This document shows positions 5,819-55,263 of a DNA stretch of 64,000 nt, piece after piece (position 1 is the stretch's first letter; each line of letters opens with the position of its first letter). The translations under genes were made by a program, and so were the position numbers. Source of the DNA: Micromonospora sp. C95 (GTDB taxonomy: Bacteria > Actinomycetota > Actinomycetes > Mycobacteriales > Micromonosporaceae). The stretch covers positions 248,001-312,000 of the forward strand of contig NZ_JAGPXT010000003.1 in assembly GCF_018070465.1 (NCBI RefSeq), written 5' to 3'. The notes under the pieces were generated by a model. The model was not told the DNA's origin and made no database searches. It saw only the letters and a program-made list of their open reading frames with translations.

Positions 5819-6729
5819 TGGCCGTCTCCGTCGACGAGGCCGTGTCCACGGTTCCGGCCCGGGATCGTCCGCGCCCCACCCGCCGCCTCGGCGGTCGGGG
5901 CCGCTCCCTGGTGGAGGTCGCGCTGCTGACCGTGCTGGCCGTCCTGATGCTCTTCCCGGTGCTGTGGATGATCGAGACGTCCATCAAGGAGAACCGGGAC
6001 GTCTACGCCGTCCCAGCCGAATTCTTCGGCTTCACGGTCACCATGGAGCACTTCAAGGACGTGTTCGTCGGCCCCGACGGCGGTCGTTCGGCCTTGTCCG
6101 TCGCGTTTCTCAACTCCGCCGTCGTCGCCGGGGTCTCTACGCTGCTGGCCACCGTGCTGGGAGTGCCCGCGGCCTGGGCATACTCACGCTTCGCCGTGAA
6201 GGCCAGGAAGGACCAGCTGTTCTTCATCCTGTCCACCCGCTTCATGCCGCCCGTGGTGGTGGTGATCCCGATCTTCCTCATGTACCGCCAGGTCGGACTC
6301 ATCGACAGCAAGCTCGGCCTGATCCTCATCTACACCGCGTTCAACGTGCCGTTCACGATCTGGATGATGAAGGGGTTCGTCGACGAGGTGCCCGCGGAGT
6401 ACGAGGACGCCGCCATGCTCGACGGCTACACCCGCCTGCAGGCGTTCCGGCGATTCACCCTTCCCCTGCTCGTACCCGGCATCGCCGCGACGGCGGTCTT
6501 CGCTCTCATCTTCTCGTGGAACGAGTTCGTGTTCGCCATCTTCCTCACCTCCAGCGACAGCGTGCGGACAGCGCCACCTGCCATCGCCGGTCTCATCGGT
6601 GGCACCACCACGGACTGGGGTCTCGTGGCCGCCGCCTCCGTCGTCTTCGCCCTACCGGTGCTCGTCTTCGCCTACCTGGTGCGCAAGCACCTCGTCGCCG
6701 GCGTGACGCTCGGGGCGGTGCGACGCTGA
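5818..6729 (+). CDS. ABC transporter permease, MalG/UgpE type
   Basis: 303 residues. An N-terminal cytoplasmic tail of about 30 residues precedes six predicted membrane helices. The EAA loop is YEDAAMLDGYTRLQAFRRFTLP, and the last helices end with VRKHLVAGVTLGAVRR, a common C-terminus of MalG-type subunits. The gene is translationally coupled on both sides by one-base overlaps. It pairs with the preceding permease; substrate choice is set mainly by the binding protein. Confidence 0.93.
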   Translation: MAVSVDEAVSTVPARDRPRPTRRLGGRGRSLVEVALLTVLAVLMLFPVLWMIETSIKENRDVYAVPAEFFGFTVTMEHFKDVFVGPDGGRSALSVAFLNSAVVAGVSTLLATVLGVPAAWAYSRFAVKARKDQLFFILSTRFMPPVVVVIPIFLMYRQVGLIDSKLGLILIYTAFNVPFTIWMMKGFVDEVPAEYEDAAMLDGYTRLQAFRRFTLPLLVPGIAATAVFALIFSWNEFVFAIFLTSSDSVRTAPPAIAGLIGGTTTDWGLVAAASVVFALPVLVFAYLVRKHLVAGVTLGAVRR

Positions 6730-7796
6730 TGGCGGGTATCGAGGTGACGGCCCTGCACAAGCGCTACCCGGACGGCACGGTCGCGGTCGACCACGTGGAC
6801 CTGTCCATCGGCGACGGCGAGCTGTTCGTGATGCTCGGCCCGTCGGGTTGTGGCAAGACGACCACGCTGCGGGCCATAGCCGGCCTGGAGCGGCAGACGA
6901 CGGGCGACATCCGCATCGGCGACACGCTCGTCAACGACCTGCCGCCCGCCGAGCGTGACATCGCCATGGTGTTCCAGTTCTACGCTCTCTACCCACATCT
7001 GCGCACCCGGGACAACCTGGCATTCCCACTGCGGGCCGAGGGACTGCCCAAGGCGGAGGTACGCGAGCGGGTCGCCGAGGCCGCCCGGTTGATGCGGCTC
7101 GATCAGCTGCTCGACCGGCGACCGCGCCAACTGTCCGGCGGGGAGCAGCAACGGGTCGCGCTGGCTCGCGCCCTGGTGCGGCGACCGCGCGCATTCCTCA
7201 TGGACGAACCGCTCACCAATCTGGACGCGGAACTGCGGGCGGACATGCGCACGGAGATCAAGCACCTGCAGGGGGAACTGGGCACGACGATGGTCTACGT
7301 CACCCACGACCAGGTCGAGGCGATGTCGCTCGGGCACCGGATCGCCATCCTCAACAAGGGCCGCGTCGAGCAGATCGGTACGCCGCTGGAGGTCTACGAC
7401 CGTCCGGCGAGTCTCTTCTGCGCCGCGTTCATCGGCTCACCACCGATGAACCTGATCGAGGTGGCGGTGGCCGACGAGAAGCTGCGCAGTCAGGGCGGAC
7501 TGGTCCTCACGCCACCGCCCGGCCTACCGCGCGACCGTCGTCTGGTCGCCGGCGTCCGGCCGGAGGCGCTGGAAGTCACCACACCAGGGGCGGAAGGTTC
7601 GGTCCCCGCCCGGGTGGTCTCGGCGGAGTGGCTGGGCGACGAGATCATCTACGTGGTGGACCACAGCGGCCAACACGACGTACGGGTACGGATGCCCCCG
7701 ACTGTCCGGTTCGCCGCCGACACACCCGTCGGGCTGCGGCACACCGGCGGAACCCCGACGGTCTACGACGTGCACACGGAAGAACTGGTGGCCTGA
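6729..7796 (+). CDS. ABC transporter ATPase, MalK/UgpC-like (canonical site)
   Basis: 355 residues. Walker [10 protein letters not shown] is at about 37-45, the Q-loop reads [10 protein letters not shown], the signature LSGGEQ is near 135, Walker B AFLMDE near 155 and the H-loop VTHDQVEAM has its switch His at about residue 193. A C-terminal TOBE-type regulatory domain follows ([14 protein letters not shown]). The Q-loop has Phe where the family usually has Asn or Ser after the Gln. It precedes a second, non-identical ATPase in the same operon, so the importer probably uses an ATPase heterodimer. Confidence 0.93.
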
Positions 7797-38328: not shown

Positions 38329-40859
38329 TCAGCGGTCCCGGCCCACCAGCTCGAGCACGGGCACCCGGGAGACCCGGAACGCGGGCCACGCTGCAGCGAC
38401 GACGCCGGCTACGACCGCAACGACGAGCGTCACCGCGAGGCGGGACCACGGTACGACGACGGATGGGATCTCCGTACCACCGGTGACGTCGATCAGCGCC
38501 CAGCCGAAGCCGACTGCGACGGCGATACCGATCGATGCTGCCACGAACGACAGGAGTGCCACCTCGAGCCGCACGATTCGACGCAGCTCTCGACGAGTCG
38601 CGCCGACCGCTCGCAGCAGCCCGAGTTCTCCAGATCGTTCATTGATTGCGAGCGCCGTGGTGTTGGCGACTCCGAGAAGCGCGATGAAGCTCGCGAGGAG
38701 GAGCATTCCGTCGATGAAGTTCCGGAACGCGGCGATCTCGCTCCCGCTGTTGGCGACGTGTTCTGCCCGGGTTTCGAGGAACGACCCGGGCGTGGCTCGG
38801 ACCAGCGCCCTGACGTCCTCCTCGGCGTCTGCGACCACTCCGTCGGCAAGGTCGACGAACAACGTGGCGTCGAGCAGGCGACCGACCGAGGCGTCGAGTG
38901 TCGCGCGGTCGACGAAGTACAAAGGGGCTTCGAAGCCGCCGGTGCTCCTCGCGACCACGGCAGCGATCGGCGCCTCGAGTGTCGAGCCTTCGAACCCGAT
39001 CTCGAGGGTGCCGCCGAGCAGCCTCGGGTCGTCGCCGACCACGGCCACGCCCCCCTCTCTCAGATCGGCGAGGTCGCCGGCGATCGGGGCGAGGTCGAAC
39101 ATGGTGGGCAGTGCGGTCGGGTCGATGCCGCCGATCGCCTCGGCCTTACCTGCCACGATCCCTTCGGCGATCGACAGCGCAGCGACCGCGTCGACGTCGG
39201 GCAGCGCCCCGATCCGGCCGGCCAGGGTGGGGTCGACCGTCGGGAAGTCGGCGGTCGCCGACGTGACCACCAGGTCGGCCTGCAGTCCTTTACGAACGTC
39301 CGTCCCGACCGCGCTCGTCAGTGAGCTCGCGAGGATCGCGAACATCGTCACCATCGCGGTGCCGAGCATGAGCGCGAGCGCCGTCGACGCCGATCGACGG
39401 GGGCTGGCGGCCAGGTTGCCCGCTGCGATCGAGCCGGACACACCGGCGGCGCGGCGGGCGACCCGAGCGCTCCCACGCGCTGCGGCGGTCACGATCGCCG
39501 GGCCGCACAGCACGAGCGCCGGTACGATGGCAGCGACGAACACGACCCACGTCGCGCTCGAGCGCACCACAGCCACCGCTGCTCCAGCGATCGCCGCCGC
39601 GGCGAGCACGAGCCCGCTCGCAGTTCGCGCCGGGCTCACGACCCGGGGTTCCGCCGCGCTCTCGCGCAACGCCTCGATCGGCGGTGTCGCCGCCGCGCGG
39701 CGAGCCGGGATCCATGCCGACAGGATCGTTGCGCCGATACCGACGGCCGCGGCGACCGCGATCGAGGTCGTGCTCACGATCGACGGGCCGGTGAGCAACG
39801 TGATCCCGGCGAGTCCGACGAGCCAGCGCAGCGCGCCCACTCCCGCGACCCCGCACACGAGGCCGGCGAGCGTGGCGATCGTCCCGACGAGCGCCGCCTC
39901 GATCACCACTCCGCCGAGCAGTTGGCGTCGTTCCGCACCGATCGCACGCAACAGCCCCGACTCCCGGCGGCGGCGGGCGACGGTGAGTGCGAACGTGTTG
40001 AAGATGATCGTCACACCGATCAACACCGCGACCACGGCGAAGGCCAGGAGGAACACGGTCAGGAACTGCAGCGGTGACGTCGCGGCGTCCTGCATCGTCC
40101 GAATGTGGTCGGACCCGTCGATGACCTCGGCATCGGTCAGCGCCGACAGTCGGCCGAGCACCTCGGCGCGGTCAGCGGCCTCGGCGACGTCGACGAGCAC
40201 CTCCGTCGGCGCCGCGGTGTCGAGCCAGGCGGACACCGCTCCGTCGGGCAACAGCACCGTTCGCTGCAGCGGTGCCGCGTCCGCCGACGCGAACGTCGCG
40301 ACACCGGTGATCGTCGCGTCGTGCATCCCCGTCGTGGTCAGGACCTGTACGACGTCACCCGGAGCCAAGCCTGCGTCACCGGCGAGCGATCGGTCGATCA
40401 CGATCTCGCCGACCGCGGTCGGTGGTCGCCCGCTCGTGAGCCGGAACGGATTGAGCGCCGGGTCGGTGACCCAGTTGCGACCGACATCGCTCGCCGTACC
40501 GGTTCCGACTGATGATCCGTCGACGACCAGCTTCGCGAAGCCGACCCATTGCGCCGCGGCGCCGTCGACGCCATCGACCGTAGCCACCCGCTCGGTGATG
40601 TCGGGATCCAGTGATCGCCGAACCGACCTTTCCGGATCTCCCGGCCCTCCGCCAGGCTCGCCGAGGACGACGCCCTGCACGACGGCATCCGTCCCGGCCA
40701 ACGCCTCGGCGATGTCACCGGCCGCTCGGCCACGCATCGAGTCGGACAGCACCAGCGTCGCGACGAGAAACGCCACCGACAGCATGATCGCCGTGCCCGT
40801 CAGCACGAAACGGCCCCGACTCGCGAGCACGCTGCGAGCCGCACTCCGCATCATCTGGC

Positions 40860-40863
<4 letters not shown>
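38329..40863 (-). CDS. MacB/LolC-like ABC transporter permease (two FtsX domains)
   Basis: 844 residues. The N-terminal helix (RFVLTGTAIMLSVAFLVATLVLS) is followed by a periplasmic domain. The first FtsX core is FLLAFAVVAVLIGVTIIFNTFAL with the coupling stretch RRRRESGLLRAIGAERRQL. A central region starts SIAAGNLAASPRRSASTALALMLGT with a second periplasmic domain. A second FtsX core contains NERSGELGLLRAVGATRRELRRIV. Such proteins export lipids, peptides or lipoproteins by mechanotransmission. It overlaps its ATPase gene by four bases. Its base usage (frequent CGATCG and TCGA) looks unlike its neighbours. Confidence 0.9.
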
Positions 40864-41651
<788 letters not shown>

Positions 41652-41705
41652 GAGACCTCCGATGAGTGGTTGATCAGGGTTCTGCCGGATGCGGCAGCTA
41701 TCGGC

Positions 41706-41837
41706 CTACCAACCGGGCGGCACCTCCCCGGACGGCGCTACGTTGGCCGCCATCACTACGTAGCTCCTACATACGGATTACATCGCTTGTCTGATGCCAA
41801 CTTTCATACCGAGCGAACCTGAGACGACCGTTAGAAC
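41706..41837 (-). promoter_or_regulatory. leader copy A with PAP2-like start codons, ahead of the exporter
   Basis: On the minus strand this segment reads a CTCAGGTTCGCTCGGTATGA box (inside 41803-41837), then GGCATCAGACAAGCGATG, an AGGAG ribosome-binding site, and ATG at 41753. That ATG opens a 15-codon frame, MAANVAPSGEVPPGW, ending at 41706. The same order and spacing are found at the PAP2 gene (copy B), whose protein starts VAVNAAPSRESPPG. The 5' end of the PAP2 gene has thus been copied here and points to the exporter genes. It could serve as promoter plus leader peptide or be a decayed duplicate. Confidence 0.65.
41803..41837 (-). repeat. 35-bp inverted repeat, left member (box A)
   Basis: This 35-bp stretch is the reverse complement of 41976-42010 with two mismatches. 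The core TTCATACCGAGCGAACCTGA is identical in both. The pair encloses a 208-bp unit. I see no target-site duplication outside it. Confidence 0.9.
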
Positions 41838-41975
41838 GGCGGTCGGTCCGGTTGGCCGAACAGGGCCCAGGCGACACAGAGCACCAAGCCCTGCTGGTGC
41901 CGGTGGGAAGATCGTCCCGGTCCACCCAGACATATGGGAGTACGACGTCGGCGGCATGCGCACCGTACGTCACGG

Positions 41976-42010
41976 GTTTTAACAGTCGTCTCAGGTTCGC
42001 TCGGTATGAA
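41976..42010 (+). repeat. 35-bp inverted repeat, right member (box D)
   Basis: Right-hand partner of the repeat at 41803-41837, 33 of 35 bases matching in reverse complement. It carries the CTCAGGTTCGCTCGGTATGA box pointing at the response-regulator gene, whose start is 125 bases downstream. Unlike copies A to C it lacks the GACAAGCGATG segment and the PAP2-like codons. Confidence 0.85.
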
Positions 42011-42134: not shown

Positions 42135-42800
42135 ATGATCACTGTGCTCGTGGCGGACGCCCAGCCGCTGCAGCGCTTCGGGTTTCGCATGCTGCTGGAG
42201 AGCACTCCCGACACCGAGATCGTCGGCGAGGCCGAGAACGGCGCCGAGGTCGTTCGTCGGATCACCGAGCTGCATCCCGACGTGGTGCTGATGGACACCC
42301 GCATGCCGGGCGTCGACGGGATCGAGGCCACCCGGCGCATCGTCGCCGCCGGTGGGCGTTCGCGGATCCTGATGCTGACGACGTTCGACTCGGACCGGTA
42401 CGCGCTCGCCGCGCTGCGGGCCGGGGCGAGCGGTTTCCTGCTCAAGGACACCCGCCCGGAGGAACTGCTCGCCGGCATCCGGGCCGTCGCCGCCGGGGAC
42501 TCGGTGATCGCACCGACGCTGACTCGGCGGCTGCTCGACGCGTTCGCCGACCAGCTCGACGTTGACCTCTGCGGGCCCGCGCGGGAGGATCCCCGGCTGG
42601 ACTCCCTGACCGGCCGCGAGCGCGAGATCCTCGTCGCCATCGGCCACGGCCTCACCAACGGCGAGATCGCGCAACGGTTCACGCTGTCGGAGTCGACGGT
42701 GAAGACCCACGTCGGGCGGGTCCTCGCCAAGATCGGCGCACGGGACCGGATCCAGGCCGTCATCTTCGCCTACGACCTGAGGCTCACCCGGCCGATTTAG
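42135..42800 (+). CDS. orphan NarL/FixJ-type response regulator
   Basis: 221 residues from ATG 42135, preceded by GAAAGG. The receiver domain has the phosphorylatable Asp in VVLMDTRMPG (about 54) and a Lys in FLLKDTRPEE. The acidic pair near the N-terminus reads VADAQ, so the second Asp of the usual DD is Ala. The LuxR-type helix-turn-helix is LTGREREILVAIGHGLTNGEI with STVKTHVGRVLAKIG. No kinase gene is adjacent. It is a close paralogue of the regulator at 53433-54089, which has the normal ADDQ. Box D lies upstream, so it may be part of, or control, the local leader regulon. Confidence 0.92.
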   Translation: MITVLVADAQPLQRFGFRMLLESTPDTEIVGEAENGAEVVRRITELHPDVVLMDTRMPGVDGIEATRRIVAAGGRSRILMLTTFDSDRYALAALRAGASGFLLKDTRPEELLAGIRAVAAGDSVIAPTLTRRLLDAFADQLDVDLCGPAREDPRLDSLTGREREILVAIGHGLTNGEIAQRFTLSESTVKTHVGRVLAKIGARDRIQAVIFAYDLRLTRPI

Positions 42801-42965: not shown

Positions 42966-44171
42966 TCAGGACTTGCGGGGAGAGACCGTCATGATGCCAA
43001 TGCACATCTCGTCGCTGGTGCCGTCGCCCCACACCACGTAGCGCGGCGGCAGCTTGCTCAGTTGCGGCAGACGTTTGCGCAGCCCCGCGTCGTGCCTACA
43101 CGTCACCCGCAGCGTGTCCCCCGGACCGATCTCCACCGGCGACGGCAGCTTCATCAGCCGCTGGTTGTCGAAATCGAACTGCGGCACGTCCAGCACGACC
43201 TTGGCGTTCGGCGTGCCCGGGTTGAGTTCGACCTTCATGGCCCGCCCGAGCATGTGCATGTGGCCGAAACCGGCGAACAACGTCATCGGCGCCGCCACCT
43301 TGTGGTCGCAGGTCTGGGTGTCACCGGGCTTCGGCGCGCCGCCCTGGTTGCACTCCTCCACCTGGCGGTCCGCCATCTCGCCGACCTCCGCCCCGAACCG
43401 CTTTGTCACGTCCGCGATCGAGGCCGCCCGGTCACAGAGCGGACCCGACTCGTCTGCGGCGCAGGGCAGGTCGGTCGGCGCGTCGAGCGACCACGTCTCG
43501 AGTTCCCGGGTCTGCGGCGTGCCGTCCGTCAGCCGCAGCCGCACCGCCGATCGGTCCGACCCCGCCGGCTTGCCGTCGGTCGCGAGCAGGTTGTAGTGAA
43601 TCTGGAGGACAAGCAGGCTGCCTGGCTCCAGCTTGTGGCCGGCGTCCTGGTCGAGCAGCGTCTCCGTGGCACCCGGCGCCCAGGTGTCCACCCACGCCGC
43701 GTCCCCCTCTTCCACCTCGGCGCCGGCCACGCCGGTCCCGCCGAAACACTGCCAGCCGAGACCAGGGGTCTTCGCGTCCTGCTCGCGCACTGCGGCAGCG
43801 CCGCCCGGCGGCACCGCGTACACGATGGCGTGGTGCGCGATGGCGACGTTCTCCGGCGTGAACTGGGCCCCGGTCAGGAACGCCGGCTTGGTCAGGCCCG
43901 GATCGATCATCTGGCACCGGTACTCGTCGGTGCCGCCCTCCGGCGGCGCGGGCGTGTACGCCTCGGCCATCTTCAGGTCGACGAACCGCTCGCCGACGCG
44001 CAGCGGCTGCGGTGGAGCCGACGACCCGCCGACGTGCGCGCCGTGCGATCCGGTCGCGGCGGGCGCCGAACTGTTGTCGGCGTCTGACCCGCAGGCGACG
44101 ACTGCGCTCGCTGTCGCCAGCGCCACGGCGGCCGTCCCGACCCTCCACAGTGGGCGTTCAGGTTTCCTCAT
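42966..44171 (-). CDS. lipoprotein with copper type II monooxygenase (PHM/DBM)-like domain
   Basis: 401 residues. The lipobox is SAVVAC (Cys about 27). The two-lobed PHM-like core is visible: HHAIVYAVPPGG in the first lobe, LLVLQIHYNLLA and FGHMHMLGRAM as candidate copper-ligand His segments, and TSDEMCIGIMTV at the end, matching the methionine/His pattern of ascorbate-dependent monooxygenases. A YRCQMIDPG segment and several Cys could form disulfides. In animals these enzymes hydroxylate dopamine or peptidyl-glycine; bacterial homologues are poorly understood. It is exported and lipid-anchored, next to envelope genes. Activity is inferred only. Confidence 0.8.
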   Translation of the reverse strand: MRKPERPLWRVGTAAVALATASAVVACGSDADNSSAPAATGSHGAHVGGSSAPPQPLRVGERFVDLKMAEAYTPAPPEGGTDEYRCQMIDPGLTKPAFLTGAQFTPENVAIAHHAIVYAVPPGGAAAVREQDAKTPGLGWQCFGGTGVAGAEVEEGDAAWVDTWAPGATETLLDQDAGHKLEPGSLLVLQIHYNLLATDGKPAGSDRSAVRLRLTDGTPQTRELETWSLDAPTDLPCAADESGPLCDRAASIADVTKRFGAEVGEMADRQVEECNQGGAPKPGDTQTCDHKVAAPMTLFAGFGHMHMLGRAMKVELNPGTPNAKVVLDVPQFDFDNQRLMKLPSPVEIGPGDTLRVTCRHDAGLRKRLPQLSKLPPRYVVWGDGTSDEMCIGIMTVSPRKS

Positions 44172-44287
44172 GGCCTGAGGCTAGGCCTGATTCTGTCGCA
44201 TTTCGTCGTACTGCGGTCTTCATTCTCGGCAGAGAGGCGGTACCACGGTGCCACTTCACCTTCGCTGCCCGCACGTCCATTTAATCC

Positions 44288-44356
44288 TCGTCCAAGATTC
44301 GCTCGGTACGAAGTCGGCATCGGACAAGCGATGCAGCTCGTACCTGGAGGCCATTG
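44288..44356 (+). promoter_or_regulatory. leader copy B upstream of the tandem-PAP2 gene
   Basis: TCGTCCAAGATTCGCTCGG starts the box at 44288-44312. GGCATCGGACAAGCGATG follows, then GGAGG six bases before GTG 44357. It aligns with copies A and C over the whole length and into the coding region. The box contains two CTCGG-like half-sites ten bases apart, a spacing expected for an OmpR-type dimer; that reading is inference. Confidence 0.65.
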
Positions 44357-45778
44357 GTGGCAGTCAACGCGGCGCCGTCCCGGGAGTCGCCGCCCGGTCG
44401 GCTGGTCGGTCGGTGGGTGCCGCTGCTGGTCGTCGCGATCGGGCTCGGGTTCGGGCTGCTGGTGCTCCTCGTCCGGTTGCACCTGGAGCCGGTGACGAAC
44501 GTCGACCGCGGTGTCGCCCGGGAGCTCAACGAGGTCGTGTCGCCCCGGCCGTACCTGGTGAACGCGCTCAATGGGACAACCCGGCTGGGCGGGCGGACGG
44601 TAATGCTCTGGCTGGTCGGCGTCGCCGCGCTGCTGCTGCTGGTACGCCGGCGGGTCCGCCTCGCCGTCTACCTGCTGGCCACCACCGTCGGCGCGCTGCT
44701 GCTCGACCCGTCGGTGAAGTCGCTGGTCGGCCGATTGCGCCCGGTGGTCGAGGCACCGGTGGCGATCGCGGCCGGCAACAGCTTCCCGAGCGGGCACGCG
44801 CTCGGGTCGATGGTGGTCTACGGCGCGCTGCTGCTCGTGTTCCTGCCTGCGGCGCGCTACCGGAAGCTCTTCACGGCGGCTGTCGCGCTGCTGGTGGCCG
44901 CGATCGGGGTCACCCGGATCGCGCTCGGCGTGCACTACCTGACAGACGTGCTGGCCGGCTGGCTGCTCGGCGCGCTGTGGCTGAGCGTCACGGCGTACGC
45001 GTTCCGGCTGTGGCGGCGCGAGGCGGGGCACCCGGTGGCGCCGCTCGACGACGGCCCGGAGCCGGAGGCCGCCAAGGCGATCGAACCGGCGCCGGAGTCC
45101 AGCCGCCCGATCCCGCACCGGTGGGTCGAGGCCACCGAGATCCTGACCGGCTGGGTGTTCACGTTCGGCATCCTGTACGTGGTCGGCTACCTGTTGACGA
45201 ACCACACCGAGGGCACCTGGCTGGGACGTTTCGACGACGGCGTGGTCCGGTGGCTGCAGACGCTGCGCACACCCACCCTGGACCACCTGAGCTGGGTGTG
45301 GAGCAAGGCCGGCGACACCCGCGCCATCCTGGCCATCTCGCTGGTGTGCTGCCCGATCGCGTTGGCCGTGTGGCGGCAGTGGCGACCGGTGGTGTTCCTG
45401 GTGCTCACCATGGTCGGCGAGCACGCCCTGTTCCTGTGTACCGCGGTCAGCGTCCAGCGGGACCGCCCGCCGGTGCCGCAGCTCGACAGCCCGATACCCA
45501 CGTCGTCGTTCCCGTCGGGGCACAGCGCCACGACGATGTGCATCTGGGTGGCGATCGCGGTCCTGATCATGAACTGGGTGAGCAGCCGGTGGCGCTGGTT
45601 GGCCGTGGTGCTCGCGGTGGTCATGCCGGCTGGTGTCGCGCTGTCCCAGATGTACCGCGGCATGCACCACCCGACCGACCTGCTCGGCGCCGCGATCCTG
45701 ACCGCGCTCTGGGTCAGCCTGCTGTGGTGGGTGCTACGGCCGAACGTGCGGGCGGCGCCGGCCGAGGTGCGTACCTGA
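44357..45778 (+). CDS. tandem PAP2-family phosphatase (two PAP2 domains in one chain)
   Basis: 473 residues from GTG 44357 with GGAGG upstream. Each half has about six membrane helices and PAP2 signatures. In the N-half they are complete: K121-to-RP129 (KSLVGRLRP), PSGH at 144-147, and R187/H193/D197 (TRIALGVHYLTD). In the C-half PSGH (386-389), H437 and D441 are kept, but the Lys of motif 1 is Ala 363 and the Arg of motif 3 is Gln 431. PAP2 enzymes dephosphorylate lipid phosphates such as undecaprenyl pyrophosphate or phosphatidic acid. The second half is probably impaired or regulatory. It heads an envelope-lipid gene set with DedA and a glycosyltransferase. Confidence 0.92.
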   Translation: MAVNAAPSRESPPGRLVGRWVPLLVVAIGLGFGLLVLLVRLHLEPVTNVDRGVARELNEVVSPRPYLVNALNGTTRLGGRTVMLWLVGVAALLLLVRRRVRLAVYLLATTVGALLLDPSVKSLVGRLRPVVEAPVAIAAGNSFPSGHALGSMVVYGALLLVFLPAARYRKLFTAAVALLVAAIGVTRIALGVHYLTDVLAGWLLGALWLSVTAYAFRLWRREAGHPVAPLDDGPEPEAAKAIEPAPESSRPIPHRWVEATEILTGWVFTFGILYVVGYLLTNHTEGTWLGRFDDGVVRWLQTLRTPTLDHLSWVWSKAGDTRAILAISLVCCPIALAVWRQWRPVVFLVLTMVGEHALFLCTAVSVQRDRPPVPQLDSPIPTSSFPSGHSATTMCIWVAIAVLIMNWVSSRWRWLAVVLAVVMPAGVALSQMYRGMHHPTDLLGAAILTALWVSLLWWVLRPNVRAAPAEVRT

Positions 45779-45883
45779 CGCTGCGCTTCGGCCTTGTCTG
45801 CCGGGCAGGATCTCGGCGCCACCACGCTGGCGCGTGCGCTGGGCACCTGGTCGGGCCACCCCGCCTGGGCGCCGCATTAATGG

Positions 45884-45952
45884 TCACCTCAGGTTCGCTC
45901 CGTAGAACTAGGCCTCAGACAAGCGACGTAACCCGCATGTAGGGGGCTAGTG
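45884..45952 (+). promoter_or_regulatory. leader copy C upstream of the first dedA gene
   Basis: ACCTCAGGTTCGCTCCGTAG begins the box (45884-45908). CAGACAAGCGACGTAACCCG and AGGGGG then lead to ATG 45953. It aligns with copies A and B through the start codon and into MAVNAAP. The gap 45779-46095 holds this copy and the remnant frame, and nothing else that I can support. Confidence 0.65.
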
Positions 45953-46105
45953 ATGGCAGTCAACGCAGCGCCGGCCGGTCGGTTGGCAGGCCGGTGGGTG
46001 CCATGGTCGGTGGTCGGACTCCATACCACGGAGCTACATCGGTGCGCCCCGCAGCGGGACGATCGGTGCGGAACCTTCGGCCGAAGCTTCCCGCCATGGA
46101 TCTGA
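45953..46105 (+). pseudogene. PAP2-like 5' remnant / possible 50-residue leader frame
   Basis: The frame starts MAVNAAPAGRLAGRWVPW, clearly like the PAP2 start VAVNAAPSRE-RLVGRWVP, and then loses all similarity (SVVGLHTTELHRC) until a stop at 46103-46105. It overlaps the start of the DedA gene by ten bases. This is the stump of a duplicated PAP2 gene or a leader frame coupled to dedA, which has only a weak ribosome-binding site of its own. Confidence 0.55.
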
Positions 46106-46743
46106 CACAGGCCGTGCTCGAGCACCCCTACCTGGTGCTCGGTCTCTTCGTGCTCGTCGAGGGGCCGGCCGCGACGATCACCGCGGGCACCCTGGTCGGC
46201 GCCGGCGCTGCGGCGTTCTGGCCGATCTGGGTGATCGTCGCGCTGGCCGAGATGGTGGGCGACAGCCTGCTCTACCTCGTCGGCCGGTCGGCCCGGCGGC
46301 CCTGGGTGGCGACCCTGCTGAGCAGGCTCAAGGCGACGTCGCTGCTCGACCGGCTGGCCGGGATGTCACTGCCTCGGCTGGTGATCACCGCCAAGCTCGT
46401 CGACGTCGTCGCCCTCCCGGCGTTCGTGTTGGCGGGGCTCGCCGGGCTCCCGTACCGCAGATTCGCCGCCTGGGTGGGTGCCACCGCCGCCGTACGCGGC
46501 CTGGTGCTGATCGGTCTCGGCGCTCTGCTCGGCAGCCAGCTGTCCGGTCTGCTCGCGCTACCCGGCGGCATCTTCCTGCTCACCGCGGCCGTCGCCGTGC
46601 CGGTCGCTGTCTTCCACCTCGTCATGAAGCGATACCACCGACGAAAGGTAGTTGTCCCATGCGCATCCTCATCGGTGCCGACACCTACGCCCCGCACGTC
46701 AACGGGGCGTCCTACTTCGCCCAGCGCCTGGCCGTGGCACTGA
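46096..46743 (+). CDS. DedA-family membrane protein
   Basis: 215 residues from ATG 46096. EGPAATITAGTLVGAG and the amphipathic region before PRLVITAKLVDVVALPAFVLAGLAGLPYRRF correspond to the DedA/SNARE-associated (VTT) domain. DedA proteins act as proton-coupled flippases for undecaprenyl phosphate or phospholipids. The last 28 residues (from about VVVPCASSS) are encoded within the next gene in another frame and look non-native, implying loss of the original stop. A second DedA gene is at 48490-49086. Confidence 0.85.
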   Translation: MDLTQAVLEHPYLVLGLFVLVEGPAATITAGTLVGAGAAAFWPIWVIVALAEMVGDSLLYLVGRSARRPWVATLLSRLKATSLLDRLAGMSLPRLVITAKLVDVVALPAFVLAGLAGLPYRRFAAWVGATAAVRGLVLIGLGALLGSQLSGLLALPGGIFLLTAAVAVPVAVFHLVMKRYHRRKVVVPCASSSVPTPTPRTSTGRPTSPSAWPWH

Positions 46744-47855
46744 CCGCCCGGCACGAGGTGCACGTGGTCGCGCCGTCGAGGGACACCCGCAACCATGCCG
46801 GCATGTCCAGCGACGGCGTCATCGAGCACCGGGTGCGGTCCATGCCGGTGCCCGGCCACTCACGTTTCCGGTTCTGCCCGCCACTGGGGCTACGCGCGGC
46901 AGCGCGCCGGATCCTCGACGAGGTCCAGCCCGACGTGGTGCACGTGCAGAGCCACTTCCCGCTGTGCCGGGCGCTGGTCGACGCGGCGCACGAGCGCGGC
47001 CTGTTCGTCATCGCCACCAACCACTTCATGCCCGAGAACCTGATCCACTACCTGCCCATCGGCAAGGCCGGCCGAACGAGGGCGCACGAGTGGGCATGGC
47101 GCGACGCCGCCCGGGTGTTCGCCAAAGCAGACATCGTCACGGCTCCGACCCCGTACGCCGCCACGCTCGCCGTCGTCTCCGGTGTGTCCGGGCCGGTCCT
47201 GCCCATCTCGTGCGGCATCGACCTCACCCGCTTCCGCGAGCAGGCGCCCGCGGCCGAATTCCGATCGGCCTACCGCCTCGCGCACAAGCCCACCGTCACG
47301 TACGTGGGCCGGCTCGACGTCGAGAAGAACCTCGACGTCGTGATGCGGGCGTTCGCGCTGGCGCGGCGCTCCCTCGACGTCCAGTTGCTCCTGGTCGGCA
47401 CCGGGACCGAGGACCGGGCGCTGCGGTCGCTCGCCGGGGAACTGGGCGTCGCCGAGCATGTCACGTTCACCGGCTTCATCCCTGACGAGGACCTTCCCTC
47501 CGCATACGCAGCGTCGACGGTCTTCGTCAACGCGGGCACCGCCGAGCTGCAGAGCCTGGTCACGCTCGAGGCGATGGCCAGCGGAAGGCCCGTGGTCGGC
47601 GCCGATGCCGCAGCCCTGCCCCACCTCGTACGGGACGAGGAGACCGGCTACCTGTTCCCGCCCGGCGACGTTGTCGTGCTCGCCGAGCGACTGCTCACCG
47701 TGCTCTGCGACCCGAAGCACGCGGAGGAGCTGGGGCACCGGGCGCGTGCCGTGGCCGAGCAGCACGACCAGACCCGCACGGTGTGCGCGTTCGAGCAGCT
47801 CTACCGGATCCGTCCGGCCCGTGAGGCGCCCGCGCCCGCCGAGGTCGCCGCATGA
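46659..47855 (+). CDS. GT4-family glycosyltransferase (PimB/MgtA-like)
   Basis: 398 residues with GAAAGG before the ATG. The N-lobe begins ILIGADTYAPHVNGASYFAQRLA, with VVHVQSHFPLCRAL and the donor-lobe motifs PISCGIDLTRF, VTYVGRLDVEKNLDVV and ELQSLVTLEAMASGRPVVGAD, which contains the EX7E-type site. Enzymes of this group transfer mannose or glucosyl units from nucleotide sugars to lipid acceptors in the inner leaflet. Between two DedA genes and a PAP2 phosphatase this suggests synthesis and flipping of a glycolipid. It overlaps the DedA gene by 85 bases. Confidence 0.92.
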   Translation: MRILIGADTYAPHVNGASYFAQRLAVALTARHEVHVVAPSRDTRNHAGMSSDGVIEHRVRSMPVPGHSRFRFCPPLGLRAAARRILDEVQPDVVHVQSHFPLCRALVDAAHERGLFVIATNHFMPENLIHYLPIGKAGRTRAHEWAWRDAARVFAKADIVTAPTPYAATLAVVSGVSGPVLPISCGIDLTRFREQAPAAEFRSAYRLAHKPTVTYVGRLDVEKNLDVVMRAFALARRSLDVQLLLVGTGTEDRALRSLAGELGVAEHVTFTGFIPDEDLPSAYAASTVFVNAGTAELQSLVTLEAMASGRPVVGADAAALPHLVRDEETGYLFPPGDVVVLAERLLTVLCDPKHAEELGHRARAVAEQHDQTRTVCAFEQLYRIRPAREAPAPAEVAA

Positions 47856-48499
47856 CAGCGACGATCGTCCGAGCGGGCACCTCCCGCTGGTACCGCAACG
47901 TCCAGCTGAGCCTGGGCCTGGGTACGGCGGCCGGGACGGGCCTGCTGCTGGTCGGCGACGTCGACCCGGTGGACCAGATGGTCAGCGAATCGATCCGGAC
48001 CGTGCCGGGCGCCGTCCTGCTGGCCCTGGCGGCGTGCGGGCTCGCGGCAGCCGGCGCATGGCTCCTGGCCGGCGCCCGGCGCGTGCTGCCACCGGCCTGG
48101 CCCCTCACCGTGCTGCTGTCGGTGTGGTGCGTGTCCCTGGTCGCGGTGGTGGTGTTCCCCACGAACCTGCCGGGGACCGAACCGGGCGTCGCCGCCGGGG
48201 TGCATCGCCTCGGCGCGGCGCTGATGGCGGCGCTGCCACCGCTGTTCGCCCTGCTCATCGCCAAGCGTGCCGGGCGCGAAGTCGACCCGCCCCGGGTCCG
48301 CTGGCTGCGCGCGGCCGGGTGGTCCGGGTTCGCCGCGTGCGTCGTGTTCGCTGCGGTGAACGGGCCGGCGGTGCTGCTCGGCCAAGGCCTCCCCCCGTTC
48401 GCGGGCCTGGCCGAACGGGTTCTACTGGCGCTCATGCTCGTCGTAGTCGGGCTCTGCGCCTGGGTGCTCGAAGGCGAGGAGCGGTCCAGATGGACCTGA
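47852..48499 (+). CDS. DUF998-like membrane protein
   Basis: 215 residues, coupled to the glycosyltransferase by an ATGA overlap. About six membrane helices are predicted. VVVFPTNLPGTEPGVAAGVHRLGAALMAALPPLFALL carries the PTD/PTN-G-H-type core seen in DUF998 proteins. The family function is unknown; position suggests a part in the same lipid pathway. Confidence 0.7.
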   Translation: MTATIVRAGTSRWYRNVQLSLGLGTAAGTGLLLVGDVDPVDQMVSESIRTVPGAVLLALAACGLAAAGAWLLAGARRVLPPAWPLTVLLSVWCVSLVAVVVFPTNLPGTEPGVAAGVHRLGAALMAALPPLFALLIAKRAGREVDPPRVRWLRAAGWSGFAACVVFAAVNGPAVLLGQGLPPFAGLAERVLLALMLVVVGLCAWVLEGEERSRWT

Positions 48500-49086
48500 T
48501 GGCCATGATCGAGAACGCGATGACCTCTCCGGTCATCTATGCGGCGATCCTCGCGCTGGCGATCCTCGACGCGTTCCTGCCGTTCCTGCCGTCGGAGTCG
48601 GTCGTCATCACGGCGGCGGTCTTCGCCGTGTCGGGCATCCCGTCGCTTCCGCTGATCATCGTGCTCGCCGCGCTGGGCGCCTTCGTCGGTGATCACATCG
48701 GCTTCCTCATCGGGCGCTTGTTGCGCGAGCGCCATTCGGGCGGCCGCCTGATCCGCGCCGCCGACAGGATCGCCCCGCACCTGCACCGCCGGGGCGGCGC
48801 CCTGATCATCGCGGGCCGGTTCGTCCCCGGCGGCCGCACCGCGGTCGTGACCGCCAGCGGTGCCACCGGCTACCCGCTTGCCCGGTTCACCCCGTTCACC
48901 GCCATCGCCGCCGTCACCTGGGCCGGCTACTCCGGCCTGATCGGCTACCTCGGCGGCGCCGCCGTCGAATCCAATCCGACACTGGGCCTGGCGGTCGGCC
49001 TCGGTCTCGCCCTGTCCATCACCGCGCTCGGCGAACTGGTCCGCTACGTGTTGCGCCGCCGCCGAGCGGCGACCGCGGCCGGATGA
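48490..49086 (+). CDS. DedA-family membrane protein (second copy)
   Basis: 198 residues. It overlaps the DUF998 gene by ten bases. FLPFLPSESVVITAAVFAVSG, GAFVGDHIGFLIGR and GALIIAGRFVPGGRTAVVTASGATGYP are classical DedA blocks, including the conserved F-V-P-G-G-R-T loop. It is a more standard DedA than the first copy, which lacks this loop form. Two different DedA proteins in one gene set suggest different lipid carriers or a heteromeric unit. Confidence 0.93.
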   Translation: MDLMAMIENAMTSPVIYAAILALAILDAFLPFLPSESVVITAAVFAVSGIPSLPLIIVLAALGAFVGDHIGFLIGRLLRERHSGGRLIRAADRIAPHLHRRGGALIIAGRFVPGGRTAVVTASGATGYPLARFTPFTAIAAVTWAGYSGLIGYLGGAAVESNPTLGLAVGLGLALSITALGELVRYVLRRRRAATAAG

Positions 49087-49147: not shown

Positions 49148-50596
49148 TCAGCGCACCGTGTCCTCCCCGGCGGCGCGGCGCGCGATCGGGGCGGGCGGCG
49201 TCGCGGCCGGAAGGTCGACCCGGAGCAGCGCGCCACCGCGCGCGGAGCGGGCGACGGTGGCCCGGCCGCCGTGGGCGTCGACGACCCGCTGCACGATCGA
49301 CAGCCCGAGACCGGATCCCGGCAACGCCCGGGCGCTGTCGGCACGGTAGAACCGGTCGAACACCCGCGGTACGTCGGCGGCGTCGATTCCCGGCCCGGCG
49401 TCGTCGACCTCGAGCACCGCCGACGCGCCCTCGGCACGGAGCCGGACCTGGACCGGCTGGTCCGCGGGAGACCACTTGCCGGCGTTGTCGATGAGGTTGA
49501 GCACCGCCCGCTGGAGCGCAGCCGGACGGCCGCTCACCCACACGGAGGTGACATCGAGCGCGATCTCGATGTCGGGCACGCGGGAACGCGCTCGGGTCGT
49601 GGCGGCCACCACCACGTCGGCGAGGTCGAGCAGCTCGGTGTTCTCGTCGCTGACGTCACCGCGGGCCAGGTCGGTCAGCTCGGCGGCAAGGGTGCTCAAC
49701 TCGGCCACCTGGGCGCCGAGATCGTTGAGCAGCCGGGTCAGGCTCTCCGCCGGCAGTGCGCCGTCCAGGGTGCCGCGCCGATCGAGCCGGATCAGCAGCT
49801 CGACGTTGAGGCGCAGGCTGGTGAGCGGGGTCTTGAGCTCGTGGGCGGCGTCCTCGGCGAGCAGCCGCTGGGCCTGCCGGGAGTCCCGAAGCGCGGCGAG
49901 CATGTCGTTGATCGACTGGATCAGCCGCCGGATCTCCCCACCGCCTTCATCCGGAATGTGGGCGTCGAGGCTCCGGGTGTGCGCGACACGTTCCGCGGCG
50001 GCGGTCAGCCGGTCGATCGGTGCCAGCCCGGTCCGCGCCACGGTCCGCCCGACAAGGGCACCGCCGACCACGCAGAGCAGCCCGATCAGCAGCATCCCGA
50101 ACCCGAACTGGTTGATCGGGCTGTCGTCGACGACGCGGGCCGCCTGGACTGCGCCGTCGCCCACCCGGAGCGTGTAGATGAGGTAGCCGTCCTCGTCGCT
50201 GTCCTTCGACTCCATCAGGTCGGCCAAGCCGCCCTGCGCCACGCGCCCGGCGTGCTCGCTGACCGGAGGCAGCGCGGGTTGGCCGGCCGGCGTCCGGGCC
50301 GAGCCGTCGGGCAGGATGACCCGCACCAGCGGACCGGATCCCGGATACGGCGGTAGCGGAACCTGCGCCAGACCGGCACGCTCCGCGGTCGCCGCCAGGA
50401 CGCGGGAGTCGGCGCGCAGCTGATTCTCAGCGGTGTCCCGCAGCTGCCAGTCCAGCAGCTCACTTGACACCTGGAAGGCCATGAACACGCTGACGGCGAT
50501 GGCCGTTGCCGCGATCACCGTCAGCCTGGTCCGAAGGGACCGCCGGCGCCACCATCGGGTCAGCCGGCGCGGTTCCCGGCCGGCGGGCCTGCTCAC
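49148..50596 (-). CDS. sensor histidine kinase, OmpR-system type
   Basis: 482 residues. Transmembrane segments at about 25-43 and 165-185 enclose an extracytoplasmic sensor. HAMP follows ([21 protein letters not shown]), then the phospho-acceptor His 252 in [16 protein letters not shown]. The ATPase domain has [25 protein letters not shown] and GSGLGLSIV. It overlaps the regulator gene upstream by four bases. It is convergent with the PAP2-DedA operon, its most likely target, given the direct-repeat boxes in those leaders. Confidence 0.94.
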
Positions 50597-51324
50597 GGAG
50601 GAGTCTCCCGCAACGTGTATCCCAGGCCGCGCAGCGTGTAGATCAATCGTGGCTCACCCTCGGCCTCCATCTTGCGGCGCAGGTAGCTCACATACACCTG
50701 AAGGTTGTTGGCGGTGGCGCTCATGTCGAACCCCCAGATCGCCTCGAACAGCGCGTCGCGGGTCAACACCCGCGTCGCGTTGCGCACGAGGACCTCCAGC
50801 AGGGAGAACTCGGTCCGGGTCAGGCGCAGCGGTCGCCCGCCCCGCCACGCCTCGAACCTGTCGGGATCGAGCCGGACATCGGCGAACGACAGGACCTGCG
50901 AGTCGCCGTCCCCCGGCGCACGCCGGCGCAGCAGGGCCCGCACCCGGGCCAGCAACTCCTCGGTGGCGAACGGCTTGGGCAGGTAGTCGTCGGCACCCGC
51001 GTCCAGCCCCGCGACCCGGTCGGACACCTGGTCACGGGCGGTCAGCATCAGCACCGGCAGATCCCGACCCGCGGCCCGCAACCGCCGACACGTCTCCAAC
51101 CCGCCGAGGCGGGGCATCATCACGTCGAGGATCAGCAGATCCAGCGTGTCACCGCCGGCCCCACCGACCTCGTCGAGCACGGCGAGGCCGTTGGCGACGG
51201 TGCTGGTGTGGTAACCCTCGACCTGGAGCACCCGCTCCAGCGACTCACGGATGGCCGCGTCATCATCCGCGATCATGATCCGCACGCCGGCCCGCCCCCT
51301 TCCGGTCGATGCCTTGTTGCTCAT
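50593..51324 (-). CDS. OmpR/MprA-type response regulator
   Basis: 243 residues. The receiver has acidic residues in [10 protein letters not shown], the phospho-Asp 67 in LLILDVMMP and Lys in [13 protein letters not shown]. The winged-helix DNA-binding domain has [25 protein letters not shown] and [14 protein letters not shown]. It binds direct repeats with about ten-base spacing in this family. Its own upstream region carries TCTCAGCTTGGTCGG, loosely like the leader boxes at 41.8-45.9 kb. Confidence 0.94.
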
Positions 51325-53432: not shown

Positions 53433-54089
53433 TCAGGCACGTGGTTGGACCAGGCCGTTGTCGTACGCGAAGATGACTGCCTGGACGCGGTCTCGCGCTC
53501 CGATCTTGGCTAGGACGCGACCGACGTGCTTCTTCACGGTGGATTCGGTGAGGGCGAAGCGTTCGGCGATCTCCGTGTTGGTGGCGCCGTGGCCGATTGC
53601 TTCGAGGACCTCTCGCTCGCGTTCGCTCAGGCTGCTCAGGCGGGGGTCCGCAGGTGCGGTCGGTGCTGGCTCCTGGAGGTAGGCGTCCATCAGCTTGCGG
53701 GTGAGGCTGGGGGCTACCACCGAGTCTCCGCTCGCGACGGCGCGGATGCCGGCGATCAGTTCCTCGGGGCGGGCGTCCTTGAGCAGGAAGCCGCTCGCTC
53801 CGGCGCGCAGTCCGGCGTAGACGTATTCGTCCAGGTCGAATGTGGTCAGGATCAGGACGTGGGTGCGGGAGCCGGCCGCAGTGATGCGGCGGGTGGCTTC
53901 GATGCCGTCCATGCCGGGCATGCGTACGTCCATCAGCACCACGTCGGGCCGGGTCTGGTCGACTTTCCGTACTGCCTCGGCGCCGTTTGCGGCCTCGCCC
54001 ACCACGGTCATGCCGGGCGTGCCGTCGAGCAGCATCTTGAAGCCCATCCGTTGCAACTGCTGGTCGTCGGCGATCAGAACGGTGGTCAT
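53433..54089 (-). CDS. NarL/FixJ-type response regulator
   Basis: 218 residues. Receiver acidic pair IADDQ, phospho-Asp 54 in VVLMDVRMPG, and Lys in FLLKDARPEE. The LuxR-type helix-turn-helix is LSEREREVLEAIGHGATNTEI with STVKKHVGRVLAKIG. It overlaps its kinase gene by four bases. It is highly similar along its length to the orphan regulator at 42135-42800. The adjacent ABC-2 exporter is its most likely target. Confidence 0.94.
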   Translation of the reverse strand: MTTVLIADDQQLQRMGFKMLLDGTPGMTVVGEAANGAEAVRKVDQTRPDVVLMDVRMPGMDGIEATRRITAAGSRTHVLILTTFDLDEYVYAGLRAGASGFLLKDARPEELIAGIRAVASGDSVVAPSLTRKLMDAYLQEPAPTAPADPRLSSLSEREREVLEAIGHGATNTEIAERFALTESTVKKHVGRVLAKIGARDRVQAVIFAYDNGLVQPRA

Positions 54090-55240
54090 GCGGGCTCCTT
54101 GAGGACTACGTCGACGAGCCAGCCGTGCTCCGTCGGGCCGGCGGTCACCACCCCGCTGTACATGGCGGCGCGTTCGCGGATGCCGAGCAGGCCATGGCTT
54201 GGGGCGGCCGGTGTGGCGACCCCGTTGTCGCGGACGTGTACTCGTACCTCTCCGTTGTCTGCGGCGAGGGTGACTGTCGCTGCCGCGCCGCGTCCCGCGT
54301 GTTTGAGGGTGTTGGTGAGCGCCTCCTGAACGATCCGGTAGACCGCGAGCTGCACGCCCCGGCCGAGGGTGTGCAGCTCGCCCGAGGTGGAGTAGGTCAC
54401 CGGCAGCCCGGCCGCCCGCACGCTCGGCAGCAGCCGGTCCAGATCGTCGATGCCCGGCTGCGGGCTCAGCTGCGGATCGTTGTCTCCTTCGCGCAGCACC
54501 CCCAGCACCCGGCGTAGCTCGGACAGCGCCTGCCGACCGGTGTCACCGATCAACCGGAGCGGTTCGGCGGTCTGCTCTGCCCGGGAGGTCGCGAGCGCGG
54601 CGCCGCCGTCGGCCAGGCCCACGATCACCGAGACGTGATGGCCGACGATGTCGTGCATCTCGCGGGCCACCCGGGCCCGCTCCTCGGCGACGGCGAGGCG
54701 GGCCCGCTGATCCCGCTCGACCTCCAGGCGGGCGGCGCGATCCTCGAGAGCGATGAGGTAAGCCCGGCGGGTGCGCACCGCGATGCCGGACGCGACCGCG
54801 GCAGTTGACGTGCCGATCACCAGGAACAGCGTGATGGTGCGGTTCTCCGTCACCGGAGCGATCACATAGATCTCGGCCACCAGCAGCGCGAGGGCGATCC
54901 CCGAGGCCCAGGCGAGCGCACGCCAAGAACCGCGGGAGGCCACGCCGAACAACATCACGAGCAGGATCACGCCGGCGCCGACGCCGACGCCCAATAGTCC
55001 CTCGATCAACTCGATGGCCGCGGTGACCAGGAAAGCCGGGAACGGGTACCGCCGTCGCCAGTACAGCGGCGGTAGCAGAACCAGGGTCGCGATCGTCGCC
55101 GACCAGGGTTCCTCGATGAGATTGGGGATGCTGAAGAGCACGATCGGGATGGCCACCAGGGTGTCCATCACCCACGGGTGGTGCCGGTCGAAGGCTCGTA
55201 ACCGTGCCTGCCGGTCCACCAGCCATCCCTGGTTGCTCAT
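54086..55240 (-). CDS. NarL-system sensor histidine kinase (HisKA_3)
   Basis: 384 residues from ATG 55240; a GTG at 55243 is one codon upstream. Four to five membrane helices fill residues 25-160, with little sensor domain outside the membrane. A coiled coil (RLEVERDQRARLAVAEERARVAREMHD) leads to the acceptor His in REMHDIVGHHVSV. The ATPase domain has VQEALTNTLKHA, VRDNGV and GLLGIRERAAMY. Intramembrane-sensing kinases of this type commonly control adjacent ABC exporters, as encoded here. Confidence 0.93.
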   Translation of the reverse strand: MSNQGWLVDRQARLRAFDRHHPWVMDTLVAIPIVLFSIPNLIEEPWSATIATLVLLPPLYWRRRYPFPAFLVTAAIELIEGLLGVGVGAGVILLVMLFGVASRGSWRALAWASGIALALLVAEIYVIAPVTENRTITLFLVIGTSTAAVASGIAVRTRRAYLIALEDRAARLEVERDQRARLAVAEERARVAREMHDIVGHHVSVIVGLADGGAALATSRAEQTAEPLRLIGDTGRQALSELRRVLGVLREGDNDPQLSPQPGIDDLDRLLPSVRAAGLPVTYSTSGELHTLGRGVQLAVYRIVQEALTNTLKHAGRGAAATVTLAADNGEVRVHVRDNGVATPAAPSHGLLGIRERAAMYSGVVTAGPTEHGWLVDVVLKEPA

Positions 55241-55263
55241 CACCAGATTCTCCCGCTACCCGC

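Follow-up and report, generated by a model that had tools for sequence, protein, structure and literature searches.

A GT4 glycosyltransferase linked to a DedA protein with replaced arginines: a candidate glycolipid synthesis and translocation module in Micromonospora sp. C95

MprF unites a lipid aminoacyl synthase and a scramblase, and fusions of DedA domains with the soluble domains of MprF have also been described (PMC11980842, citing Roney and Rudner 2023 for the latter). The archaeal AglD combines a glycosyltransferase and an MprF-type (UPF0104) membrane domain in one protein (PMC5898192), and the SMR proteins ArnE/ArnF form a glycolipid flippase that is encoded in the biosynthetic operon (PMC9574504). 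For the DedA family it has been argued that two arginines bind the phosphate of undecaprenyl phosphate; both were reported to be essential in members from E. coli and B. subtilis, and DedA proteins without positive residues at these sites were proposed to move uncharged or positively charged lipids (PMC10127716). Here we describe a locus in a stretch of 64,000 nucleotides from Micromonospora sp. C95 (positions 248001-312000 of contig NZ_JAGPXT010000003.1, in a genome of 6.35 Mb; hereafter the window), in which a DedA protein with both arginines replaced, DedA1, is paired with a GT4 glycosyltransferase. The two belong to a group of five genes:

44357..45778, plus strand: PAP2-PAP2 fusion, GTG start (TTG at 44354 as an alternative), present in seven of the eight closest genomes
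46096..46743, plus strand: DedA1, a VTT/DedA protein of a GT4-linked subfamily, with K and A at the positions of YghB Arg130 and Arg136
46659..47855, plus strand: GT4 glycosyltransferase (P0003), of a subfamily with TNHFMPEN invariant among 37 aligned members
47852..48499, plus strand: DUF998 membrane protein, recurrent beside GT4
48490..49086, plus strand: DedA2, a canonical DedA protein with both arginines (GRFVPGGRT), start ATG at 48490

A sequence-only reading of this stretch had described five overlapping or close genes facing an OmpR-type sensor system. All five open reading frames were recovered at the same place and strand, with overlaps of 85 (DedA1/GT4), 4 (GT4/DUF998) and 10 nucleotides (DUF998/DedA2) and a gap of 317 nucleotides between PAP2 and DedA1. 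Conservation of the gene order, which that reading had proposed as a check, holds for the full order and the convergent kinase and regulator in seven of the eight closest genomes (the window itself, L012, which equals L121, L020 and L122-L126). L123, without PAP2 and DedA2, is the exception; in L020, DUF998 is in two pieces and DedA2 is partial. As a set the five genes are thus co-conserved in close relatives, but the unit conserved more widely is DedA1-GT4: beyond the eight genomes what remains of the order is DedA1-GT4-DUF998, sometimes accompanied by DedA2, or just the DedA1-GT4 pair.

This result comes from 195 GT4-centred loci including the window, drawn from the best 80 of at least 567 stretches of named records, from 200 genomes of the family (38 loci) and from 396 genomes of the phylum and 394 of the class (76 loci). 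Removal of near copies at 97 percent GT4 identity took out 10 loci and left 185. Profiles were seeded from the window and the loci and iterated on those same loci, and three loci were assigned to the DedA1 class by hand: L015 (in pieces), L023 (a DedA1-type gene 3' of GT4) and L045 (contig end). By GT4, the nearest named relatives among the matches listed are Verrucosispora sediminis and V. sioxanthis, at 94 percent identity. In the 200 family genomes GT4 was found at E <=1e-70 in 37 and DedA1 at E <=1e-12 in 20. These 20 coincide exactly with the genomes in which GT4 is at least 62 percent identical to P0003; DedA1 occurs in none of the other 180, including 17 with a GT4 outside the P0003 clade. 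Within the window's genus two genomes of this draw are positive and 20 listed ones negative, and the DedA1-GT4 module is therefore accessory. DedA1 lies directly 5' of GT4 across phyla, including candidate phyla and Myxococcota. Over the 396 phylum genomes its profile scored at least 127 bits in eight and at most 94 bits in the remaining matches at E <=1e-20, and GT4 is adjacent in six of the eight (a distant GT4 in G292). DedA1 and GT4 are in different reading frames in the window; in 4 of 40 DedA-slot loci (L012, L020, L125 and L126) the frame is open into GT4, and since an ATG stands where GT4 begins in all four, a union of the two proteins and reinitiation are indistinguishable there.

The residues of DedA1 set it apart from its neighbour DedA2. 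With the Pfam VTT model (PF09335) DedA1 (P0002) scores 30.6 bits, and 32.5 in a second run, against a cut-off of 33.9; its homologues from L021 and L034 pass with 37.9 and 50.6 bits, and DedA2 reaches 54.6. DedA proteins were aligned against eight E. coli DedA proteins at the positions highlighted in PMC10127716, hits of at most 420 nucleotides being excluded. In the DedA proteins directly 5' of GT4 the YghB Arg130 position is Lys in 38 of 38 and the Arg136 position is Ala in 32 and Gly in 6, while the first-tip glutamate is unchanged in each of the 37 proteins with a residue at that position. DedA1, with K and A at the second-tip arginine sites, falls outside the COG0586-type undecaprenyl-phosphate flippases as these residues define them; DedA2, with D, E, R and R, that is an acidic first tip and both arginines, falls within them. 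DedA2 stays below the NCBIfam UptA cut-offs (35.7 of 300 and 24.8 of 250 bits). Both arginines are also kept in 14 of 15 DedA proteins 3' of GT4, the exception being the DedA1-type protein of L023, in 9 of 9 near a DMT gene and in 3 of 4 others. Judged by these positions the two DedA proteins are not equivalent, and the residues to be expected in an undecaprenyl-phosphate flippase are present in DedA2 alone. The sequence-only reading, which named two lipid-carrier flippase candidates, missed this difference in kind.

The replacement is shared by a GT4-linked subfamily. Across 20 DedA1 proteins, ranging in origin from candidate phyla to actinomycetes, E22, G23, P24, G31, D56, G63, K100, G114, G142 and G146 are invariant. 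The predicted model of DedA1 (predicted local distance difference test, pLDDT, 77.7; predicted template modelling score, pTM, 0.60) has helix breaks at residues 23 and 102, which would put E22 and K100 on or close to the tips of the two expected hairpins. The window's genome encodes eight VTT proteins, five with both arginines (DedA2 included), one with one, one with neither, and DedA1 with K and A; E. coli has eight DedA proteins and B. subtilis six (PMC10127716).

In loci that lack DedA1, a gene for a ten-helix protein often stands immediately 5' of GT4. The profile of this protein matches NIPA2 (E 3.7e-12); with the Pfam NIPA model such proteins score 18.0, 19.3 and 22.6 bits, below the cut-off of 26.2. 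A predicted model with ten helices (pLDDT 92.4, pTM 0.90) matches Gdx-Clo (Z 11.0, root mean square deviation 2.0, 99 aligned), EmrE (Z 9.5), LicB (Z 9.3) and the nucleotide-sugar transporter 5ogk (Z 8.3). Nine of the best 10 VIA rows (Z 8.1-11.0) are SMR, LicB, nucleotide-sugar, SLC35B1 or 5i20 entries, all of which we take to be DMT proteins. On the evidence of this model the slot protein has the DMT fold, with the caveats that the SMR rows span residues 4-117 only and that an unrelated ABC transporter scores Z 8.5; Foldseek with the same model returned no match at E <=0.001. The immediate slot was occupied by a DedA protein in 35, a DMT protein in 48 and neither in 29 of 112 discovery loci, and by DedA in 5, DMT in 46 and neither in 22 of 73 later test loci, with no locus holding both in either set. 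Counting DMT genes within 2.7 kb on either side, the 185 loci comprise 102 with DMT, 41 with DedA1, 42 with neither and none with both. A strict rule of DedA or DMT was dropped, as nine test loci have a DedA gene near the DMT protein, all nine of the DedA2 kind. In a GT4 tree of 92 representatives (quick method, no bootstrap) one side holds 30 rows (21 DedA1, 9 neither) and the other 62 (49 DMT, 13 neither). In 15 of 94 DMT-slot loci the frame is open into GT4, and nine of these (Rhodococcus, Amycolatopsis, Prauserella and six, L152-L157, of one genus in the window's family) contain no ATG, GTG or TTG between the two parts and, from their sequence, very likely encode single fused proteins. In one actinobacterial family (L164, L168, L169, L224, L227 and others) several GT4 genes are followed by a second, distant GT4, and their slot contains neither DedA1 nor a DMT protein.

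The glycosyltransferase itself belongs to the GT4 family. P0003 scores 121.4 bits with Pfam GT4 and has the Pfam GT4 and group 1 domains. E296 and E304 of EX7E, presumably the GT4 glycosyltransferase motif, are invariant in 37 of 37 subfamily members, all of which match the models for alpha-monoglucosyldiacylglycerol synthase, N-acetylglucosaminyl phosphatidylglycerol synthase and BshA. Under the curated cut-offs for lipid glycosyltransferases P0003 reaches 67.2 of 400 bits (Mgs) and 107.2 of 480 bits (N-acetylglucosaminyl phosphatidylglycerol synthase). Assigning a sugar or an acceptor from the sequence was tried and was not possible.

The pairing of DedA1 with GT4, the unions and the two transporter folds in one slot argue that the slot protein is a transporter for the GT4 product, and the absence from DedA1 of the arginines that would hold a phosphate suits a product with no phosphate in its head group, for instance a glycosyl diacylglycerol. 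We give roughly an even chance to the proposal that at its core the module couples a lipid glycosyltransferase with a lipid translocase of its own, with the PAP2-PAP2 protein and DedA2 as an accessory arm. GT4 would add a sugar to a membrane lipid at the cytoplasmic face. The acceptor would most likely be of the diacylglycerol type, or another lipid with a product free of head-group phosphate, and DedA1 would carry the resulting glycolipid across to the outer leaflet. The unrelated DMT-type protein would perform the same job in the sister GT4 clade, sometimes within one polypeptide with GT4. PAP2 would make the lipid acceptor (e.g., diacylglycerol) from phospholipid or would dephosphorylate a polyprenyl carrier, and DedA2, with its canonical residues, would bring the carrier phosphate back inward. 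The general idea of a membrane-lipid glycosyltransferase with flippases, put forward in the sequence-only reading, is supported; what that reading observed is confirmed and its interpretation is partly supported.

Several observations weigh against this proposal. A DedA1-like gene in G047 is unlinked to GT4 and broken by stops, and two of the eight DedA1-type matches in the phylum genomes (G346 and G557) have no GT4 in flanks of 1.5 kb. Neither partner is nearby in the 42 loci mentioned above, some of which reach contig edges. The GT4 subfamily matches lipid and non-lipid glycosyltransferase models alike, with P0003 far under each cut-off, and NIPA2, matched by the DMT profile, bears the name of a magnesium transporter. 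Two further VTT proteins of the window's genome also lack one or both arginines. A fold search with the DedA1 model gave no match at E <=0.001 and no solved relative, the best VIA match (Z 5.2) being uninformative. Finally, a single change on the GT4 tree accounts for the exchange of DedA1 and DMT partners, so the exclusivity amounts to one ancient exchange kept since, not to repeated independent evidence, and could reflect plain descent.

Among the remaining genes, the PAP2 gene was listed as a lipid-phosphate phosphatase by the sequence-only reading, which missed that it encodes two fused PAP2 domains (Pfam PAP2, 103.6 bits over two stretches, and PAP2_3, 31.4 bits). By eye, domain 1 has the full set of what we take to be the PAP2 motifs (KX6RP, PSGH, RX5HX3D); domain 2 has PSGH and HX3D, the K and R being absent. 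The best NCBIfam match of domain 1 is the undecaprenyl-diphosphatase SepP, at 66.5 bits under a cut-off of 250. From their sequences, domain 1 and DedA2 resemble an ordinary pair for carrier recycling, and PAP2 and DedA2 may recycle a carrier. Of 34 non-redundant actinobacterial DedA1 loci, 7 have a PAP2-superfamily gene no more than 3 kb from GT4, as do 1 of 102 DMT loci and none of 37 loci with neither partner. The fraction is 9 of 12 in a deep subclade comprising candidate phyla, Myxococcota, Legionella, Planctomycetota, Dadabacteria and one distant relative, L162; seven of these nine fall in one PAP2_C-like profile, whose sole scored member, from L076, reaches 35.1 bits with Pfam PAP2_C. 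The myxococcal locus L034 contains PAP2 genes, a DedA-PAP2-LssY_C protein, DedA1, GT4, a metallophosphatase and a two-component pair. In the Legionella loci L042 (6001-8822) and L064 GT4 is followed by a PAP2_C-like gene, no DedA1 was found, and in L042 a gene that by eye resembles ketoacyl-synthase III comes next. L126 has a further PAP2-PAP2 stretch on the opposite strand past the regulator pair, at 5434 to 6762 relative to GT4. The DUF998 protein (Pfam DUF998, 47.2 bits, cut-off 30) has a counterpart within 2.7 kb of GT4 in 23 of the 34 actinobacterial loci. A structure search found no solved relative of it; archaeal DUF998 members were reported to be homologous to the lipid-metabolism-linked Frag1/DRAM/Sfk1 family (PMC5898192).

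The sensor system noted in the sequence-only reading is present: kinase and regulator (49148-51324, minus strand) converge on the five genes. Their coordinates are given here together with those of four copies of one upstream element, which fall within 4.4 kb:

49148..50596, minus strand: sensor kinase of the convergent OmpR-type system
50593..51324, minus strand: OmpR-family response regulator
41695..41857, minus strand: upstream element copy A, before an ABC transporter ATPase gene
41976..42010, plus strand: upstream element copy B, short, before a NarL-type regulator gene
44269..44415, plus strand: upstream element copy C, before and into the PAP2 start
45876..46016, plus strand: upstream element copy D, before DedA1

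Copy D has three matches at E <=0.001 in its own genome, all at this locus. The element precedes DedA1 in all eight close genomes, with complete or partial copies at corresponding places further 5', and a blastn search over the compared loci found it in these eight genomes only. As the gap of 317 nucleotides between PAP2 and DedA1 holds a copy of the element that also precedes PAP2, the five genes may form two transcription units and not one. The distribution of the copies suggests a single local regulon with the ABC transporter among its members, and the FtsX-type ABC transporter, the NarL-type regulator and the module may together constitute one envelope-stress regulon. The FtsX-type transporter occupies 38329-41651 on the minus strand; the NarL-type regulator (about 42135-42800, plus strand) has no adjacent kinase gene, and a HisKA_3 kinase is encoded at 54086-55243. 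Between regulator and PAP2, 42966-44171 (minus strand) encodes a protein that on inspection is probably a lipoprotein; it carries a copper monooxygenase C-terminal domain (26.2 bits, cut-off 23) and has a homologue that adjoins the module in L012, L122, L123 and L126. An open reading frame of 50 codons at 45953-46105 (plus strand) resembles the PAP2 N-terminus, overlaps the DedA1 start and is open in 8 of 8 close genomes. It was rejected as a small protein, since pairwise substitutions are spread near-evenly over the codon positions (242, 208, 198) and thus give no coding signal.

Other accounts of the locus have to be weighed. Both DedA proteins might return undecaprenyl phosphate, with PAP2 removing a phosphate from undecaprenyl pyrophosphate and GT4 lengthening a glycan that is linked to a polyprenyl carrier. 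Such recycling would agree with the SepP match of PAP2 domain 1 (below its cut-off), with the full residue set of DedA2, with reported DedA-PAP2 fusions (PMC10127716), one of which is found near GT4 in L034, and with the B. subtilis yngABC operon, in which genes for envelope glucosylation accompany one for a DedA protein (PMC7961091). However, the two arginines described as essential (PMC10127716) are missing from DedA1, as from all 38 slot proteins, and a PAP2 gene is nearby in only about a fifth of the actinobacterial DedA1 loci (7/34), which leaves this account unlikely, though still one to be taken seriously. It is improbable that the five genes share no pathway and are unrelated envelope genes held together by common regulation: one element does precede PAP2, DedA1, the transporter gene and the NarL-type regulator gene, and two-component genes recur near GT4, but the element is confined to the eight close genomes among the compared loci, DedA1-GT4 linkage extends far beyond them, and in the sister clade GT4 is fused to its membrane partner.

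The slot proteins could also handle something other than a lipid. If DedA1 and the NIPA-like DMT protein supplied or balanced a cation (e.g., Mg2+) for GT4 or the membrane, the NIPA2 match would find a ready explanation, and a Klebsiella study connects DedA proteins with divalent cation balance (PMC10846249). A general Mg2+ supplier would not be expected to be fused to, or strictly paired with, one glycosyltransferase, however, and the SMR proteins, which are the top structural matches of the DMT protein, include glycolipid flippases; a role as ion partner is accordingly a poor prospect. Movement of a nucleotide sugar or small glycoside instead of a lipid, to which the match to 5ogk would point, is the most improbable of these accounts, as GT4 enzymes act in the cytoplasm, where nucleotide sugars are already present. 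Characterised DedA proteins are, moreover, described as lipid flippases or scramblases (PMC10127716).

Returning to a glycosyltransferase with its own lipid translocase, the same design may extend from candidate phyla to actinomycetes as glycolipid units of a TNHFMPEN GT4 and a dedicated flippase, for which an arginine-less DedA protein or a DMT fold would serve as alternative modules. We regard this wider generalisation as tentative, at somewhat less than an even chance. The literature, as far as searched and with most subscription papers outside reach, yielded no DedA-GT4 or DMT-GT4 unit, nor do the available parts of PMC7961091, PMC11340318 and PMC5898192 contain one; glycosyltransferase-flippase unions of other folds are already known (AglD, MprF). 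To our knowledge, the substrate of most DedA proteins is not known, the route by which simple glycolipids arrive in the outer leaflet is unsettled for many species, and DedA1 would, if the proposal is true, be the first DedA protein assigned to a neutral glycolipid. A DedA subfamily that is bound to one glycosyltransferase and has replaced its phosphate-holding residues offers a direct handle on assigning a DedA substrate, a task that reduces here to two genes and one lipid.

Compared with the described systems, DedA2 resembles UptA and the COG0586 proteins YghB and YqjA in its acidic and both arginine positions, whereas DedA1 differs from them by the replacement of both arginines and a shortened first tip (EGP), with a loop length as in YohD. 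By these residues alone, the arginine-less second tip of DedA1 is like that of COG1238 (YqaA), from which its second-tip lysine sets it apart; the COG1238 type, found in 57 of 810 actinobacterial genomes according to a table in PMC10127716, was proposed there for uncharged or positive lipids. PetA, a DedA phosphatidylethanolamine transporter (PMC12893004), is a DedA protein assigned to one lipid, as DedA1 would be, but the lipid and the partner genes are others. The yngABC operon of B. subtilis comprises the DedA protein YngC, the proposed sugar-lipid flippase YngA and a sugar-nucleotide enzyme and is two-component-activated (PMC7961091). In this it is akin to our locus; unlike our locus, the operon as described has no GT4, and its carrier is an undecaprenyl-phosphate sugar. 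The likeness to AglD would lie in a glycosyltransferase joined to a flippase-like membrane domain, which in AglD is of the MprF type; that work does not mention DedA (PMC5898192). ArnE/ArnF offer a parallel in an SMR-type protein that flips a sugar lipid and is encoded within the biosynthetic operon, although the window has DedA1 and not a DMT protein. The Arn pathway uses an undecaprenyl-phosphate sugar. A Pfam scan of the five proteins found no MprF synthase domain at E <=0.01. By analogy, the module would follow the same principle as MprF, a head-group modifying enzyme coupled to a membrane domain that moves the product outward, with a GT4 glycosyltransferase as the enzyme and a DedA or DMT protein as its partner.

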